Both the position numbers and the translations under genes were made by a program. A DNA stretch of 64,000 nt, taken from positions 62,001 through 126,000 of the forward strand of contig JALHSP010000071.1 in NCBI GenBank assembly GCA_022865305.1, read 5' to 3'. This DNA is from Bacteroidales bacterium. Lineage in GTDB: Bacteria > Bacteroidota > Bacteroidia > Bacteroidales > VadinHA17. Each line of letters opens with the position of its first letter. The first letter of the stretch is position 1. Shown piece after piece: positions 12,274 to 18,758 of this stretch. The notes beneath the pieces are model-generated. The model was not told the origin of the DNA. It ran no database searches and saw only the letters and a list, made by a program, of their open reading frames with translations.

Positions 12274-15200
12274 TCAATTTTCAGTAATCGTAGGATTATC
12301 TTCTTTCTTCATTTCAGATTTCTCCCTTTTCCTGAATAAATCTGAAAACTTGTCAAAATCCTGTTGAAAGAAAAAACCGAATCCCTGAGTATAATCTCCT
12401 TTAATTCCACTACCGGTATATAAACTATTGAACCTGTTAAATACCTTGAATCGTATTTTTTCAGCGATTTTGTATTCAATATCAACATCAGGAATCTGAT
12501 AAGTATGATTTGCAGCACTTCCCTGGGCTCTTACATCGAAATTGCCGTTTATTGTTACTTTATCATTCAACAGCTGTGTTGAGAGTGCTACCTGAACTTC
12601 CTGGGAATTCGGATTATTATAACCTGGCCGGTAAACAAATCCTACATCAAAATCATTGCTGATTTGCGATAGCCAATTACTGAGCTGGTTTGAAAGCATT
12701 TCCGTGGTTGTAGTGGTAGGGGATGTTTTAAGGGAATACATAGATGAAACATCAGAATAAAATTGGTTCATTACCAGGAGGTAAAGGAACTGACGGCTTA
12801 ATTCCTCTTCTGTGGTAATTGCGCTTTTAAGGATAGACCTTGTTTGTTCATCAGCCTGGGGCAGATCAATATTTAATCCAATTACAGGATTAAACAGCTT
12901 ACCTGATAAATTAAGCTGACACTCGATTGGAATTCTTTCGTTCCCCGCTTCTCCAGGTAAAATTTCAGCTAGTGAGGTTTTCAGCTTATAAATAGCTTTC
13001 ATATCAATCTCAGCATTATCAATATCTCCTCTGAAAGTTATTTTACCTCCATTTTCTACACTGAAGTGTTTATTAAAAATATTACCGAGAGTGAACAGGT
13101 AGTCACCATCCTCAATAATATAATCCCCTGAAATCCTGAGGTCACCATTTCTATCAAGATTAATATTCAGATTTCCTGATCCATGACCTTTTATTACGTC
13201 CCCTACTTTCGGGTCGAAAATAAGCTGTATTTCAGCCTCTGGTGTCACTTCAAGATCAAAGTTAATTTCCATCCCTGTCTCAGTTGCCGGAGCAGGGATT
13301 TCATTAACTGTACTTTCTTCTGTTTTTACTGTTGTATCGGGGTTTATAAATGTAATATAAGAATAATCCGACACAGTTTCGCTTGTGTTCAAAGGGATAT
13401 AAATTTTGGTGTTCCTGCCTGTTTTTGCAGAAATATCGAACGAAAGCAAATCCAGTGTACTTTTGATTGTTGTGACTCCGGAGCCGTAAGCAGTTCCATA
13501 AAATAACTCATTGTCTTTTGGCTTTGTATTCAGTACCATGCATTCATTGATATTTATCATCAGGTCAGCGGTGAAATCCTTGAAATATTTATGATAAACC
13601 GATCCGTTGAGGTTCGCAATATTGCCTTTTTCATCTGTAAGCCTGATATTTTTAAACCTGATCTCATTTTTATCGAATCTTATTGAATCATTCAGTCTGT
13701 ACTTTGTCTGCAGATAATCAATTTTCATGGATGCATTTTCAGCCAATAGGGCTCCCTTCAGAACAAGACCGCGGATCTCTCCCGACAGGTTCACTTTGCC
13801 GGTTGCTGAGCCGGTAATTCCGGAAGCAAATATATTGAGTAACGGATTAAGGGCATCAACAGGCAGCTTATCAGCACTGGCATTGAGATTAATCATTTTT
13901 GTTACCGGGTCATATGATCCGGCAATATCAATCATTTTCTTCCCTGCAAGATTATTGCCAGCATTGATGTTTGCGACTTTTTTCTTATTGTCCCATGCTG
14001 AAATAATTGAAAGATCACCCAATTCACTTTCGAGGATAGAAAAATTGTTAACCTTCACATCACTTTCAAGTAAAATATTTCTGTAAACATCAGTTAAAAA
14101 GAGATTGCCATTGAGCACTCCTTTCAGTGAAAGAGAAAACATGTCGGGATCATTATTCCTGTTTATTATGTAATTAAGAGGGGAGAGGTCTATTCCTTTA
14201 AATTCAAGATGCAACGTATCACCAGTATCTTCCGAAATATTACCATCAACAAGGTAATAACGCTCTTTACTGCTTATAAACAGATTGTTAATCTTTACTG
14301 AACTAGTGTCGAAAAGGACTGATGAATTACTGACCTTCCACAAATTATTCCGACTATAGATATTAGTGGAATCAATATTTATTGTGAGAATTGGATTACC
14401 TTTTCCGGAAGTATTTTGTAAAAAGTTTCCCCTGGCTATAAAATTGCCGCTATTAAGAATTTTGTCTTTATTATCCCAGTTAACTGTAAAAACAAATTTA
14501 TCAGGTACTGTATTAAGGTTTACAGAAAAACCTTTAAGTTCAGATTGTCCCAGAAGGTTCAGGGAACTACTCTTCATATCAAAGGAAAATTCGGGTAAAA
14601 TAACCTTTGCATCAACAGTAATGTCCTTAAGCATATTGTTCCCGAAACTAAATGTACCGGCCTTCCCTGAAATACTTATAATACTGTCCGGAAAAACAGC
14701 ACCGTTTATTGCACTTTTTTCAGAAAGCAGAATTCCGGAGCGGAAGAAATTATTGATTTTGTCAGTATTCTTAAAGGCTATATTAAAAGTAAAGCTATTT
14801 TTTTTTGCTTCGTTTTCCTGTACAGGGACGGAAAACCTGGAAGGCATCAGGGAGGCCAGTATTGACTTAAATGACGTTCTTAATTGTGCGAAATTGTAAT
14901 TCCCCCTGAGGTCGGCATCGACAAAATCGGTGCGAAGACTCATTGCAGGCAGGTCATTTTCAGTAAAAGTTCTTAACGACATATCGTAAAACTCAAGAAT
15001 TTTACCGTATTTCCTGATACTGGAATTTAAGAGCTTTATTTCGCCGTCAAGATTATCAATGTTACTGCCTTTTATATTGGCTGTCATAAGCATTGAAAGA
15101 TTTGAAGTAGTGTCGGTCTTGTCAAAATTGAGCTTGTTAAGATCAGCTTCTGCCAGATTCATTGTAAAATCAAATTCCGGCATTTCTTTACTGAAATTTA

Positions 15201-16728
15201 GCATCCCCAACAGATCCAGTTTTATATTTTCATCTGCTATTTTTATGCTTCCATCCCATGTCTTTTCCTTAAAGATACCACTCAATGCAATATTCCGGTA
15301 CTTATAATTATTTATTTCAATACTGTCAATTCGACCTGTAAGATTCCCTGAGAAATTCTTAAGGGCATATGAATACCCGTCAATATCTGTCTTCATGCTG
15401 ATGTTACCAAATAAATCGCTCCTGCCTGTAATTTTTCCAAGAGCTATACTGCTCCCTGTTATCAGTCCATTTATTCTGAACCCGCTTGTTTCTTCAGGTC
15501 TCAGCGAGATATCGGTACTTAACGTTCCAATGTCGGTTCTGATCTTTCCATATGTGACAAAATCAGTAGTAAATCCTGTGAAGCTGCCATCGAATGATAT
15601 ATTCCCGAGTTTGTACAGAATTTCAGGCCATTTAACAGGATTTTTGCCGGGAATTTTAATTTTTTCAATATCTTTTAAATTGATGTTCAGGTTATTGATG
15701 CCTAAGTAAATAAATGTATTGCCTATTTCCGGGAGTCCAGAAAAATCAAAATCACAATCAAGGTAGGTTTCGTCACTGTATGATAACTGGATATTCCGGC
15801 CTCTAAGTTCTGAAACTGTTCCGAAAACTCTCCCTGATAACCATGCCGACTCTTCAATTCCTTTTACTGGTGATACAAAATATTGCAGATCTGAGCTGCT
15901 CACCAGAGATTTATTAAGTACAAGATCAATTTTTATCTCTTTTATAAAATTTCTGAATGAAGCAGATGAATCAGCATGAAGTCCAAAATGTGAGATATTC
16001 AGGACGGTGCTGTCGCATAGTAATAAAGCTGAATTGAACAGGATATCGCTTTTTGTGATAATTACATCACTGCTCATTCTGTTCACTGCAAAACCGGATG
16101 ATTCTCTGAAGCCAAGGTTGTAAATGCTGAAGGAGGTAGTATCTCTGTATACCTCAAATTCTTCCACGATCGCATTTAAATCATTAAGCCGCAGATTATT
16201 GAAATTGATCGGAGTGCTGCTCTTAATACCGGATTTATTTATAAGGGAAAATCTTGCATCGCTGAGTTCAATCTGATTTATTGAGAAATCGCTTTCTGTT
16301 TTCTTTAAGGTGTCTTCAGGTGTTCGGATCAGATCGAGATACCACGATAGATTCAGCACTCCGGAAGTATCAGTAATAAGAGCAACAAATGGTTTTATCA
16401 TTATAACTTTGCCCAGAGAAACCTTCTTATTCTTAAAATTGATTCTTCTGATGCCGGCTGATAAGAACTGAGAATAGATCAGTGTATCATCATTTTTATC
16501 TTTTATGAGTATGTCATTTATATTCAGCTTATTAAAAAAGCTAAAATGAATCTTGCCAACAGATATTACGGATTGAAATTCTTCAGAAAAATGATTTGTG
16601 ATTCTTTTAACAAGAAGAGTCTGCACTTCGGGAATCCTTAAAACAAAGGAGAGGATGGTCGGTATTGCAATTATGATCCCGATAACTATAATAAAATATT
16701 TGATTGATCTTTTAATACTTCTGAGCAT
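12274..16728 (-). CDS. tamB: TamB-like translocation/assembly module (DUF490) protein
   Basis: A giant 1484-residue protein with one N-terminal membrane anchor (about 10-30, YFIIVIGIIIAIPTILSFVL) followed by a long beta-rich repetitive region and a C-terminal DUF490 domain (about 1180-1450; segments such as EMNFDLEVTPEAEIQLIFDP and GDYLFTLGNIFNKHFSVENG). TamB-type proteins span the periplasm and act in outer-membrane protein or lipid delivery. The BamA-like partner TamA is not adjacent. Bacteroidota commonly carry tamB next to and divergent from tsaD, as here, except that about one kilobase of other material separates them in this window. Confidence 0.9.
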   Translation of the reverse strand: MLRSIKRSIKYFIIVIGIIIAIPTILSFVLRIPEVQTLLVKRITNHFSEEFQSVISVGKIHFSFFNKLNINDILIKDKNDDTLIYSQFLSAGIRRINFKNKKVSLGKVIMIKPFVALITDTSGVLNLSWYLDLIRTPEDTLKKTESDFSINQIELSDARFSLINKSGIKSSTPINFNNLRLNDLNAIVEEFEVYRDTTSFSIYNLGFRESSGFAVNRMSSDVIITKSDILFNSALLLCDSTVLNISHFGLHADSSASFRNFIKEIKIDLVLNKSLVSSSDLQYFVSPVKGIEESAWLSGRVFGTVSELRGRNIQLSYSDETYLDCDFDFSGLPEIGNTFIYLGINNLNINLKDIEKIKIPGKNPVKWPEILYKLGNISFDGSFTGFTTDFVTYGKIRTDIGTLSTDISLRPEETSGFRINGLITGSSIALGKITGRSDLFGNISMKTDIDGYSYALKNFSGNLTGRIDSIEINNYKYRNIALSGIFKEKTWDGSIKIADENIKLDLLGMLNFSKEMPEFDFTMNLAEADLNKLNFDKTDTTSNLSMLMTANIKGSNIDNLDGEIKLLNSSIRKYGKILEFYDMSLRTFTENDLPAMSLRTDFVDADLRGNYNFAQLRTSFKSILASLMPSRFSVPVQENEAKKNSFTFNIAFKNTDKINNFFRSGILLSEKSAINGAVFPDSIISISGKAGTFSFGNNMLKDITVDAKVILPEFSFDMKSSSLNLLGQSELKGFSVNLNTVPDKFVFTVNWDNKDKILNSGNFIARGNFLQNTSGKGNPILTINIDSTNIYSRNNLWKVSNSSVLFDTSSVKINNLFISSKERYYLVDGNISEDTGDTLHLEFKGIDLSPLNYIINRNNDPDMFSLSLKGVLNGNLFLTDVYRNILLESDVKVNNFSILESELGDLSIISAWDNKKKVANINAGNNLAGKKMIDIAGSYDPVTKMINLNASADKLPVDALNPLLNIFASGITGSATGKVNLSGEIRGLVLKGALLAENASMKIDYLQTKYRLNDSIRFDKNEIRFKNIRLTDEKGNIANLNGSVYHKYFKDFTADLMININECMVLNTKPKDNELFYGTAYGSGVTTIKSTLDLLSFDISAKTGRNTKIYIPLNTSETVSDYSYITFINPDTTVKTEESTVNEIPAPATETGMEINFDLEVTPEAEIQLIFDPKVGDVIKGHGSGNLNINLDRNGDLRISGDYIIEDGDYLFTLGNIFNKHFSVENGGKITFRGDIDNAEIDMKAIYKLKTSLAEILPGEAGNERIPIECQLNLSGKLFNPVIGLNIDLPQADEQTRSILKSAITTEEELSRQFLYLLVMNQFYSDVSSMYSLKTSPTTTTTEMLSNQLSNWLSQISNDFDVGFVYRPGYNNPNSQEVQVALSTQLLNDKVTINGNFDVRAQGSAANHTYQIPDVDIEYKIAEKIRFKVFNRFNSLYTGSGIKGDYTQGFGFFFQQDFDKFSDLFRKREKSEMKKEDNPTITEN

Positions 16729-16890: not shown

Positions 16891-17178
16891 TCATTTATTC
16901 AAATAGATTCTTTGAAAGAATATCCATTTTTTGTTTTTACTTTCATTGATTTCAGTAATTACAACATCTTCCTTTTTATAACCTTTTGCCTGACAATACT
17001 GATTAATCCGCTCATAAGCCAGGGATTTCTGAACAGAGGGATCGGAAATAACATGGATAATATCTGTTTTATAAAATACAGAAAAAGAAATCCATCCAAA
17101 CCAGGTTTTTATTTTTGTATCATAAAAAGAGCCTTCGCCATTATCATAACGGATTATTCTGAACTTTCTTTTTTTCAT
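16891..17178 (-). CDS. Hypothetical protein
   Basis: A 95-residue reading frame starting MKKRKFRIIRYDNGEGSF, rich in lysine and aromatic residues, with no signal peptide or membrane helix. I do not recognise the family. Its small size and composition resemble accessory proteins found on phages and integrative elements of Bacteroidota. An overlapping 100-codon frame on the other strand is less convincing (long hydrophobic runs, no plausible start context). It lies in the interval between tamB and tsaD with the folded RNA and AbrB-like gene and may have arrived with them. Confidence 0.55.
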   Translation of the reverse strand: MKKRKFRIIRYDNGEGSFYDTKIKTWFGWISFSVFYKTDIIHVISDPSVQKSLAYERINQYCQAKGYKKEDVVITEINESKNKKWIFFQRIYLNK

Positions 17179-17238
17179 AACCTGTACCTGAATATTTTCA
17201 TATTGCTAAGTTAAGAAATAAACAGGTTAAAAGTGCGC

Positions 17239-17246
17239 TATTTTTG
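17239..17246 (+). promoter_or_regulatory. Candidate -7 box upstream of the folded RNA
   Basis: TATTTTTG fits TAnnTTTG exactly. A transcript starting about six bases later would begin near 17252, run through the folded region at 17283-17437, and continue into the AbrB-like gene at 17492. The nearest upstream TTG is too far for a standard -33 element. Confidence 0.45.
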
Positions 17247-17282
17247 TTGCCTGGAACAAAGGGTAAAGAGCTCGGAAATGAT

Positions 17283-17437
17283 CCCGGTTCATCCTGTAAT
17301 GCGTACGCAGAAATGCCAGGCGGCATAGTCTAATACTGGAGCAGGTAAATAATTAATTGCTGCAAGTGGCTATGAAAGAGCCGTATATGAATAATCCTGG
17401 GTGCAAACCAGGTGGCATGGTGCATTACGGGACCGGG
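17283..17437 (+). ncRNA. Candidate structured non-coding RNA (undescribed)
   Basis: No reading frame fills this stretch, but it folds well. The outer stem pairs 17283-17288 (CCCGGU) with 17432-17437 (ACCGGG) and 17293-17302 (CCUGUAAUGC) with 17422-17431 (GCAUUACGGG). That gives 16 pairs, one of them G-U, interrupted only by a 4-nt bulge (UCAU) on the left side. Four hairpins can form inside: 17313-17326 (AUGCC/GGCAU), 17341-17363 (GCAG/CUGC), 17368-17382 (GGCU/AGCC) and 17396-17412 (CCUGG/CCAGG, 7-nt loop GUGCAAA). The result is a multi-branched closed RNA of about 155 nt. It could be a cis-acting leader for the AbrB-like gene, a stand-alone RNA, or a remnant of a mobile intron. I matched it to no known riboswitch. 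Confidence 0.5.
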
Positions 17438-17445
17438 TATTGCAT

Positions 17446-17477
17446 CAACGTATTAAAAAACGTATCTTAATACGTTG
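17446..17477 (+). repeat. Inverted and direct repeat before the AbrB-like gene
   Basis: A perfect 10-bp inverted repeat, CAACGTATTA (17446-17455) and TAATACGTTG (17468-17477), lies 14 bases before the ATG at 17492. The heptamer AACGTAT occurs twice directly (17447 and 17459, 12 bases apart) and once inverted (17470-17476), so a second, competing 7-bp hairpin is possible. There is no U-run, which argues against a simple terminator. It may be an operator for the downstream DNA-binding protein or a leader switch. Confidence 0.5.
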
Positions 17478-17491
17478 AAAAATTTAAAGTC

Positions 17492-17674
17492 ATGACACGC
17501 AGAAAAACAGATGAGAGTCACATACGAAGCCTGACAAAAGTATCCGGAGGCACAAGTTATGCAGTAACCATTCCCATGGAGTACATCCGGAAGCTGAAAT
17601 GGAGAGCAAAACAAAAACTGGATGTAAGGCTTTATCAGGACCGGATCATTATCCGTGACTGGAAGTCCGGGTAG
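17492..17674 (+). CDS. Small AbrB/SpoVT-type DNA-binding protein
   Basis: A 60-residue protein whose core, LTKVSGGTSYAVTIPMEYIR followed by LKWRAKQKLDVRLYQDRIII, matches the swapped-hairpin AbrB/MazE fold: a sheet carrying G-S-x-x-V-T-I-P, a short helix, then two strands. Such proteins dimerise and bind DNA, often at their own promoter. No toxin partner is encoded beside it, so an antitoxin role is not supported. A repeat-rich hairpin and a folded RNA lie directly upstream. It is 70 bases before tsaD on the same strand. Confidence 0.75.
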   Translation: MTRRKTDESHIRSLTKVSGGTSYAVTIPMEYIRKLKWRAKQKLDVRLYQDRIIIRDWKSG

Positions 17675-17744
17675 TTTTTTTTATTATTCAAGAATTCCTG
17701 ACTGAAATGAGGAACCTCTGAATGATATTTTAAAAAAAGAATTG

Positions 17745-18758
17745 ATGGCAGTTACCATATTAGCAATAGAGTCTTCCTGTGATGATACTTCTGTGGCGGT
17801 CATCAGGGATGGCTATATTCTTTCCAGTCTGACTGCCAGCCAGGATATTCATAAATCGTATGGAGGTGTTGTTCCGGAGCTTGCATCGAGGGCTCATCAG
17901 GCTAATATTGTACCGGTTACAGATCAGGCGATAAAAAGGGCAGGTATCAGGATCAGTGAGATTAATGCGGTTGCTTTTACCAGAGGTCCGGGCCTTCTTG
18001 GTTCTTTGCTGGTAGGTACTTCATTCGCAAAAGGTTTTGCACTTACCTGCAATATTCCTCTTATCGAAGTTAATCACCTTCAGGCTCATGCACTGGTTCA
18101 CTTCATTAAGGAAAAAGGCAAAGAAATTAAAGTCCCTGGTTTCCCATTCTTATGTTTACTCGTTTCCGGAGGACATACAAGGATCATTCTTCTCAGGAGT
18201 CATCTTGAAATGGAAGTACTTGGGAACACTATTGATGACGCGGCAGGAGAAGCTTTTGATAAATGTGGTAAAATAATGGGATTTCCATATCCTGCCGGAC
18301 CAATAATTGATAAGCTGGCATCAGCAGGTAATAAAAAAGCTTTTGTCTTTCCAAAACCTTCAGTAAGAGGTCTTGATTTCAGCTTCAGCGGATTAAAAAC
18401 CAGTTTTCTTTATTTTCTCAGAGACAGGATAAAAGATGATCCTGATTTTATTGAAAAAAACGAATCTGATTTATGTGCCTCACTTCAGTATGTAATTGTC
18501 AGCATTTTAACCGGCAGACTGGTTAAGGCATCAATACAGACAGGAATTAATGAGGTTGGAATTGCCGGCGGTGTGTCAGCAAATTCAGAGCTGAGAAATG
18601 CTGTCAGGGCAGAAGCTGAAAAAAGATCCTGGAATCTCTTTATCCCGGAATTAAGCTATACCACTGATAATGCGGCTATGATAGGAATTACAGGATATTT
18701 TAAATATCTTAGAGGTGAATTTAGCGGTCAGGAAGTTGCGCCTCTTGCAAGGTTCTGA
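17745..18758 (+). CDS. tsaD: tRNA N6-threonylcarbamoyladenosine transferase TsaD
   Basis: This enzyme transfers threonylcarbamoyl to A37 of tRNAs reading ANN codons, together with TsaB and TsaE. The 337-residue protein starts MAVTILAIESSCDDTSVAV. I chose the ATG at 17745 over the TTG one codon earlier. Metal-binding H111 and H115 lie in NHLQAHA, and VSGGHT, NTIDDAAGEAFDK and the C-terminal SYTTDNAAMIG are all present. It is complete and of family length. The next gene starts 22 bases after its stop. Confidence 0.97.
   Translation: MAVTILAIESSCDDTSVAVIRDGYILSSLTASQDIHKSYGGVVPELASRAHQANIVPVTDQAIKRAGIRISEINAVAFTRGPGLLGSLLVGTSFAKGFALTCNIPLIEVNHLQAHALVHFIKEKGKEIKVPGFPFLCLLVSGGHTRIILLRSHLEMEVLGNTIDDAAGEAFDKCGKIMGFPYPAGPIIDKLASAGNKKAFVFPKPSVRGLDFSFSGLKTSFLYFLRDRIKDDPDFIEKNESDLCASLQYVIVSILTGRLVKASIQTGINEVGIAGGVSANSELRNAVRAEAEKRSWNLFIPELSYTTDNAAMIGITGYFKYLRGEFSGQEVAPLARF

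Follow-up and report, generated by a model that had tools for sequence, protein, structure and literature searches.

The gap between tamB and tsaD in this 4.98-Mb draft genome (176 contigs) contains a 155-nt non-coding stretch that can be folded into a closed, branched structure, which raises the question of whether it is a new RNA, as a preliminary description proposed, or a different kind of palindromic DNA. The window is the whole 64,000-nt stretch of DNA that was analysed, and all positions refer to it. The gene order at the locus is tamB (-), a 95-aa ORF (-), the 155-nt stretch (17283-17437), a gene for a 60-aa AbrB/MazE-type protein (+) and tsaD (+), with the following features:

12274-16728, minus strand: tamB, flanking gene (Pfam PF04357)
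16891-17178, minus strand: 95-aa ORF of the tamB-tsaD gap, inverted here with respect to the eight relatives that have the ORF
17239-17246, plus strand: match to TAnnTTTG, not above chance
17283-17302, plus strand: left arm of the outer stem, from the fold; other copies not found
17368-17413, plus strand: very probable orphan copy of a right-end-type terminal repeat unit (R1) of an IS200-like element, matched by a covariance model
17422-17437, plus strand: right arm of the outer stem, from the fold; other copies not found, and 7 of 100 window shuffles with an equal stem
17445-17478, no strand: 34-bp palindrome, putative operator, with ACGT cores at 17448, 17460 and 17472
17492-17674, plus strand: 60-aa AbrB/MazE-type DNA-binding protein (Pfam PF04014, 30 bits against a cut-off of 24.7)
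17742-18758, plus strand: tsaD, flanking gene (Pfam PF00814)

No match at or above the gathering score was found in the window with Rfam, and a riboswitch or ribozyme was rejected on that ground. A permissive Rfam scan of 17100-17700 returned three weak matches, the best of them (E 0.4) on other bases, and the one inside the 155-nt stretch had an E value of 2.7. A tRNA or tmRNA was likewise rejected, none being present in the window. The segment GAGCCGTAT bears a likeness to domain V of a group II intron, and an intron remnant was dropped as a candidate because those bases belong to the repeat unit described below. The TAnnTTTG promoter box that had been reported upstream does exist but carries no weight, because the motif is rarer in the window than expected (50 found versus 65.6 in shuffles).

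The minimum-free-energy fold of 17283-17437 (-57.2 kcal/mol, z -3.4) was equalled in 1 of 200 shuffles, and it contains the closing stem that had been described, with 17 pairs and a 4-nt bulge on the left arm. The four separate internal hairpins of that description were absent from this best fold, which has an ensemble frequency of 0.007, pairs the interior otherwise and, of the two hairpins that define the repeat family, includes the second alone (17396-17412). The reverse strand folds just as unusually (z -3.9, not equalled in any of 200 shuffles). Palindromic DNA would behave in this way, and the fold is therefore not specific to RNA. Among stems with 60-200 nt between the arms, the outer stem was the top-scoring one in the window; a stem equal to it or better was present in 7 of 100 whole-window shuffles and absent from 93, which is only marginally better than chance. 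Long stems of at least 15 pairs, in a cruder count, were not in excess (7 in the window versus a mean of 9.65 in 20 shuffles), and 11 of 426 tiled 155-nt windows had z-scores of -3.4 or lower, these being rough values with heavy tails since each window was shuffled 12 times. The outer stem is probably fortuitous and local to the locus, and the stretch is most likely no RNA gene but palindromic DNA lying between genes.

DNA searches detected no homologue of the whole stretch elsewhere in its own genome, in 97 relatives or in 394 other genomes of the class. The relatives were searched as a set of 98 genomes that included the own one, with the best eight candidates at most scored per genome (E <= 0.01), and the class genomes with the best two at most (E <= 1e-4). 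Matches were found in 16 of the 98 genomes, all of the same genus and the own genome among them, and those outside the own genome lay mostly within about 17339-17415. The left-arm part had no BLAST match in the own genome (E <= 1), the 97 relatives (E <= 0.01) or the 394 class genomes (E <= 1e-4). Homologues that keep the sequence and lose the pairing had been named as a sign against the RNA; the core homologues keep their pairing, while the outer stem had no homologues in the searches made.

The core (17368-17413) consists of two hairpins linked by TATATGAATAA, and reading of the matched places gave the repeat pattern GGCTCTGAAAGAGCC, TATATGAATAA, CCCCCGGTGNAACCGGGGG, here called R1. The layout of the window copy is a hairpin at 17368-17382, the box GTATATGAATAA at 17383-17394 and a hairpin at 17396-17412. 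A covariance model was built from 16 copies in nine other genomes, leaving out the window copy and the copies with a broken or missing second hairpin. This model matched the window copy with 46.5 bits (E 5e-10, sequence and structure), the sole other match in the window having an E value of 0.16. R1 was matched at E <= 0.01 in 50 of 58 genomes of the genus, the own one included, and in none of the remaining eight; among the genomes that had given nothing to the model, 41 of 49 were positive at the same threshold. At least ten inverted R1 pairs, about 90-136 nt apart, were present among the matches listed.

At E <= 0.01 the own genome has seven R1 matches, several of which are partial; as two overlap on opposite strands, they mark six places. 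At E <= 1 the matches number nine. The window copy is single, without an inverted partner, and divergent: its second hairpin is shortened and shifted, with no third hairpin inside. Inspection by eye revealed no conserved GTAG or GTGG foot, as in canonical REP sequences, in the alignments or flanks, and GTGG at the first hairpin was found in the window copy alone. Elsewhere in the own genome, another R1 unit, a partial one, directly abuts an abrB-type palindrome, as at the locus studied here (L031, 1927-1990, G000:C126), and contig C71 of G056 carries two copies, 67 bp apart, of a unit with a variant R1 first hairpin (L043 and L054).

R1 in the relatives forms the inverted ends of an element of about 0.7 kb that encodes a Y1 (IS200-like) transposase. 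The repeat was found beside a 148-aa IS200-like ORF in G022, a transposase with matches in 47 of the 58 genomes (E <= 1e-10), and the loci of 30 matches were examined. Cognate loci were defined as those whose transposase, whole or partial, is at least 50% identical to the G022 protein (n = 21; L184-L203 and L212). One or more R1 copies lie within about 120 nt of the gene in 20 of the 21, and both ends carry R1 in inverted orientation in 15, one of these cut by a contig end; at L186 no R1 was detected at E <= 0.01, and the far side is beyond the contig end. R1 was found at none of 12 loci with other, divergent Y1 genes (L204-L211, L213 and L061-L063; 11 distinct genes, as L062 and L208 are one), three of them from the own genome. 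It is this difference, 20 of 21 cognate loci versus 0 of 12 others, that identifies R1 as the terminal unit of an element which holds the transposase gene between its ends; one cognate locus, L184, had given one sequence to the R1 model.

The cognate transposase belongs to Pfam Y1_Tnp (PF01797) and falls a little below the cut-off of NCBIfam transpos_IS200. By eye, the ends behind the stop codon are mostly GGCTCTGAAAGAGCC-like and those before the gene mostly AGCCACGAATGTGGCT-like, and the window copy, GGCTATGAAAGAGCC, is of the type found behind the stop codon (GGCTCTGAAAGAGCC-like). At L198 (G054:C13), a variant end unit recurs in several direct copies, at intervals of about 453 bp, close to one transposase gene. 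The cognate transposase was not found in the draft of the own genome, nor, by that measure, an active IS200-like element. The genome has three Y1 matches: two share 36 and 38% identity with the cognate protein, and one was not matched by the cognate query. R1 was near none of them, so that, on the evidence of the draft, this genome has its R1 copies as orphans.

Covariation in the R1 hairpins was weak on the initial 16-row alignment. In a MAFFT alignment of 29 units, 28 from transposase loci plus the window copy, the first hairpin was paired in 90.8% of cells, and 52 cells were changed on both sides versus 18.1 in shuffles. Two of the five covariation measures were not above the shuffles in this alignment: for the first hairpin, the count of doubly changed pairs was reached by 148 of 500 shuffles, and that of pair types by 459 of 500. 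A model-fitted alignment of 45 rows gave 93 cells changed on both sides in the two hairpins versus 22.1 in shuffles, with all five measures above all 500 shuffles, counts that kinship can inflate. This covariation resembles that of RNA structure, and DNA explains it better: it is also expected of a single-stranded DNA hairpin bound by a Y1 transposase, and because hairpins recognised in single-stranded DNA would give the same pattern, it is not by itself evidence of RNA.

The window copy thus belongs to the R1 family, whose hairpins show compensatory pairing and whose units flank cognate transposase genes, and we are confident that the core (17368-17413) is no new RNA gene but one end of an IS200-like element, left as an orphan. 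To judge by IS200/IS605 and REP elements, the hairpins would be recognised by the transposase in single-stranded DNA, with cutting and joining there. The window copy could have arrived by transposition or as a fragment and would now be inert; its RNA fold would be a by-product of hairpin-forming DNA, and any effect of the stretch on abrB would be incidental. Among the options first offered for the stretch, the RNA part of a small mobile element was right in kind, but what is found is a DNA end, the terminal repeat of an IS200-like element.

Among 30 relative tsaD loci, tamB was detected beside tsaD in 27, and the space between the two genes holds the 95-aa ORF in eight and abrB in two (G056 and G011), so the statement that this neighbourhood normally has nothing there was only partly right; of the stretch as first observed, the closing stem stood, and the four internal hairpins and the weight of the promoter box did not. 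At E <= 0.1, R1 was absent both from these 30 loci and from 35 sources that bear abrB, which represent about 25 distinct places. The gap between tamB and abrB is about 240 bp in G056 and G011 versus 763 here. No clean empty site was found among the relatives, because the locus has also been rearranged, with the 95-aa ORF inverted. Judged from these sequences, the 155-nt stretch is peculiar to its own genome and lies in a rearranged gap.

Next to it, the ACGT cores of the 34-bp palindrome lie 44, 32 and 20 bases before the abrB start; the palindrome is a probable autoregulatory operator of the abrB-like gene. Homologues of this gene were found in 10 of the 58 genus genomes and at 24 named loci in a collection of contigs. 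The named loci are mostly from Bacteroidales or Bacteroidota MAGs, with a few Patescibacteria, which makes the own genome probably one of Bacteroidales. The 12-base ACGT spacing was present in 14 of 21 upstream regions, a 24-base one in L165 and neither in six, a count that has no shuffle control behind it; the 21 regions are the window and 20 of the 24 loci, L175, L179, L181 and L183 being left out as their start or upstream bases are missing. One of the 14, among the regions L160-L180, is in a Patescibacteria record (L180).

Copies of the palindrome are dispersed in some genomes. The pattern ACGTATTAA-N10-TTAATACGT, with one mismatch at most, was found 17 times in the own genome (G000), 38 times in G011, five times in G056 and once each in G003, G038, G045, G053 and G054, with none in the other 50; a backward control pattern was absent from the own genome and G011 and occurred once in G056 and once in G031. 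The eight pattern-bearing genomes all belong to the ten in which an abrB homologue was detected, and no copy of the palindrome was found in the 48 genus genomes that lack a detected homologue, a comparison uncorrected for kinship and including several incomplete genomes. The single copy is the operator itself in G003, G045 and G053, and lies elsewhere in the genome in G038 and G054, where it may be due to chance. A second operator type (CTATGTAGG...) is not dispersed: of three genomes, two have one copy and the other has two.

By crude ORF calls, the dispersed palindromes are nearly all outside ORFs, mostly at non-orthologous places, and between convergent ORFs in 4 of 17 cases in the own genome and 10 of 34 in G011. 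A conserved abrB regulon was not supported, as few places are common to genomes: with places assigned by the same crude calls (17 in the own genome, 34 in 33 loci of G011 and five of G056), the own genome and G011 share, besides the abrB-tsaD place, no more than two weakly matching proteins (23 and 33% identity), and G011 and G056 have three places in common, that of abrB included. The palindromes resemble a repeat that has spread more than they resemble a conserved regulon, and the AbrB-like protein would be expected to bind them. A tentative possibility, which we hold to be less likely than its negation, is that the operator of an abrB autoregulator, ACGT-N8-ACGT-N8-ACGT, was multiplied genome-wide as a palindrome repeat, its dispersed binding sites spreading with or because of the protein as a REP-like network without its own transposase, and that the orphan transposon end is a second, independent repeat that landed there. 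If true, such a network could have a part in organising the chromosome, or its sites could sequester the AbrB-like protein like a sponge.

Other readings of the 155 nt have to be weighed against the orphan end, which has difficulties of its own: the copy is lone, divergent and unpartnered; the outer stem, which 93 of 100 shuffles could not equal, neatly encloses the core; covariation was weak on the first 16 rows and later fell short of the shuffles in two of five measures; and a 23-base match in G014 to 17337-17359 (E 0.003), which we took for chance, falls outside the core. That the arms are the terminal inverted repeats of a complete miniature element spanning the whole 155 nt would account for the nested palindromes and for an outer stem that is the best in 64 kb, but the arms were found nowhere else in the own genome, the relatives or the class genomes, whereas the inner unit recurs, and the family's own ends are R1 units; we regard this as very improbable. 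Equally little probability is given to a new trans-acting small RNA transcribed from a TAnnTTTG promoter of its own. The motif at 17239-17246 and the stable fold speak for it, but the window has fewer such motifs than its shuffles, the two strands fold alike, and the stretch has neither an Rfam family nor a homologue of its whole length in 97 relatives and 394 other class genomes.

A structured leader RNA of the abrB-like gene that captured a transposon end and controls abrB expression is somewhat less improbable, though still unlikely. The stretch folds stably and lies on the abrB strand, its end 54 nt short of the start of the gene, but R1 is missing at about 25 other abrB places, 20 abrB upstream regions have no match to the stretch except one of 12 bases at E 0.096, and in the two relatives where tamB, abrB and tsaD follow one another as they do here, tamB and abrB are about 240 bp apart, not 763. 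The abrB homologues mostly keep a short operator-like array upstream and nothing like the 155 nt, and the operator already offers a simpler control, so the regulatory-leader option of the preliminary description was not supported, and its interpretation as a whole was upheld only for the kind of element involved. With the core read as an orphan transposon end, the candidate RNA can be closed as a relic. As a candidate RNA the stretch is ordinary, and more may be gained from following the palindromes of the abrB-like gene; such repeats will go on turning up in searches for new RNAs in genomes of this kind.

AbrB/MazE-type regulators have palindromic operators, and the present system resembles them in its small AbrB-fold protein with a palindrome just upstream of the gene; it differs in that the palindrome has spread to many intergenic places in three genomes. 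No description of the R1 repeat and the abrB palindromes was found in the open-licence literature, matched by words and not by sequences. TIRtrons and REPtrons (PMC3733652) share with the R1 element a tyrosine transposase gene between inverted repeats and dispersed copies of the repeat. Such a gene with terminal inverted repeats was found at 15 of 21 cognate loci, and flanking of a cognate transposase holds for the R1 family but not for the orphan copy of the window. Here, however, there is no conserved GTAG or CGTC foot, nor the GTAG or GTGG foot of a canonical REP, and an R1 end consists of two hairpins and a conserved box, about 47 nt in all.

A close likeness is also to the IS200/IS605-type Y1 (HUH) transposases of TnpA subclass 1.2, which have a Y---Q--HH signature and generally lack typical terminal secondary structures (PMC6006769). 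By eye, in two proteins, the R1-flanked transposase has this signature (YLKNQQVHH in L034 and YVKSQQEHH in L187), which would place it in the subclass. Also as in subclass 1.2, it occurs in Bacteroidota with few Y1 matches per genome (PMC6006769), here 0 to 6 at E <= 1e-10 with divergent ones counted. It differs from the subclass as there described (PMC6006769) in that R1-type structured ends are regular, so that in this Bacteroidales-like genus two-hairpin ends are the rule in a Y1 transposase group described as generally without them.
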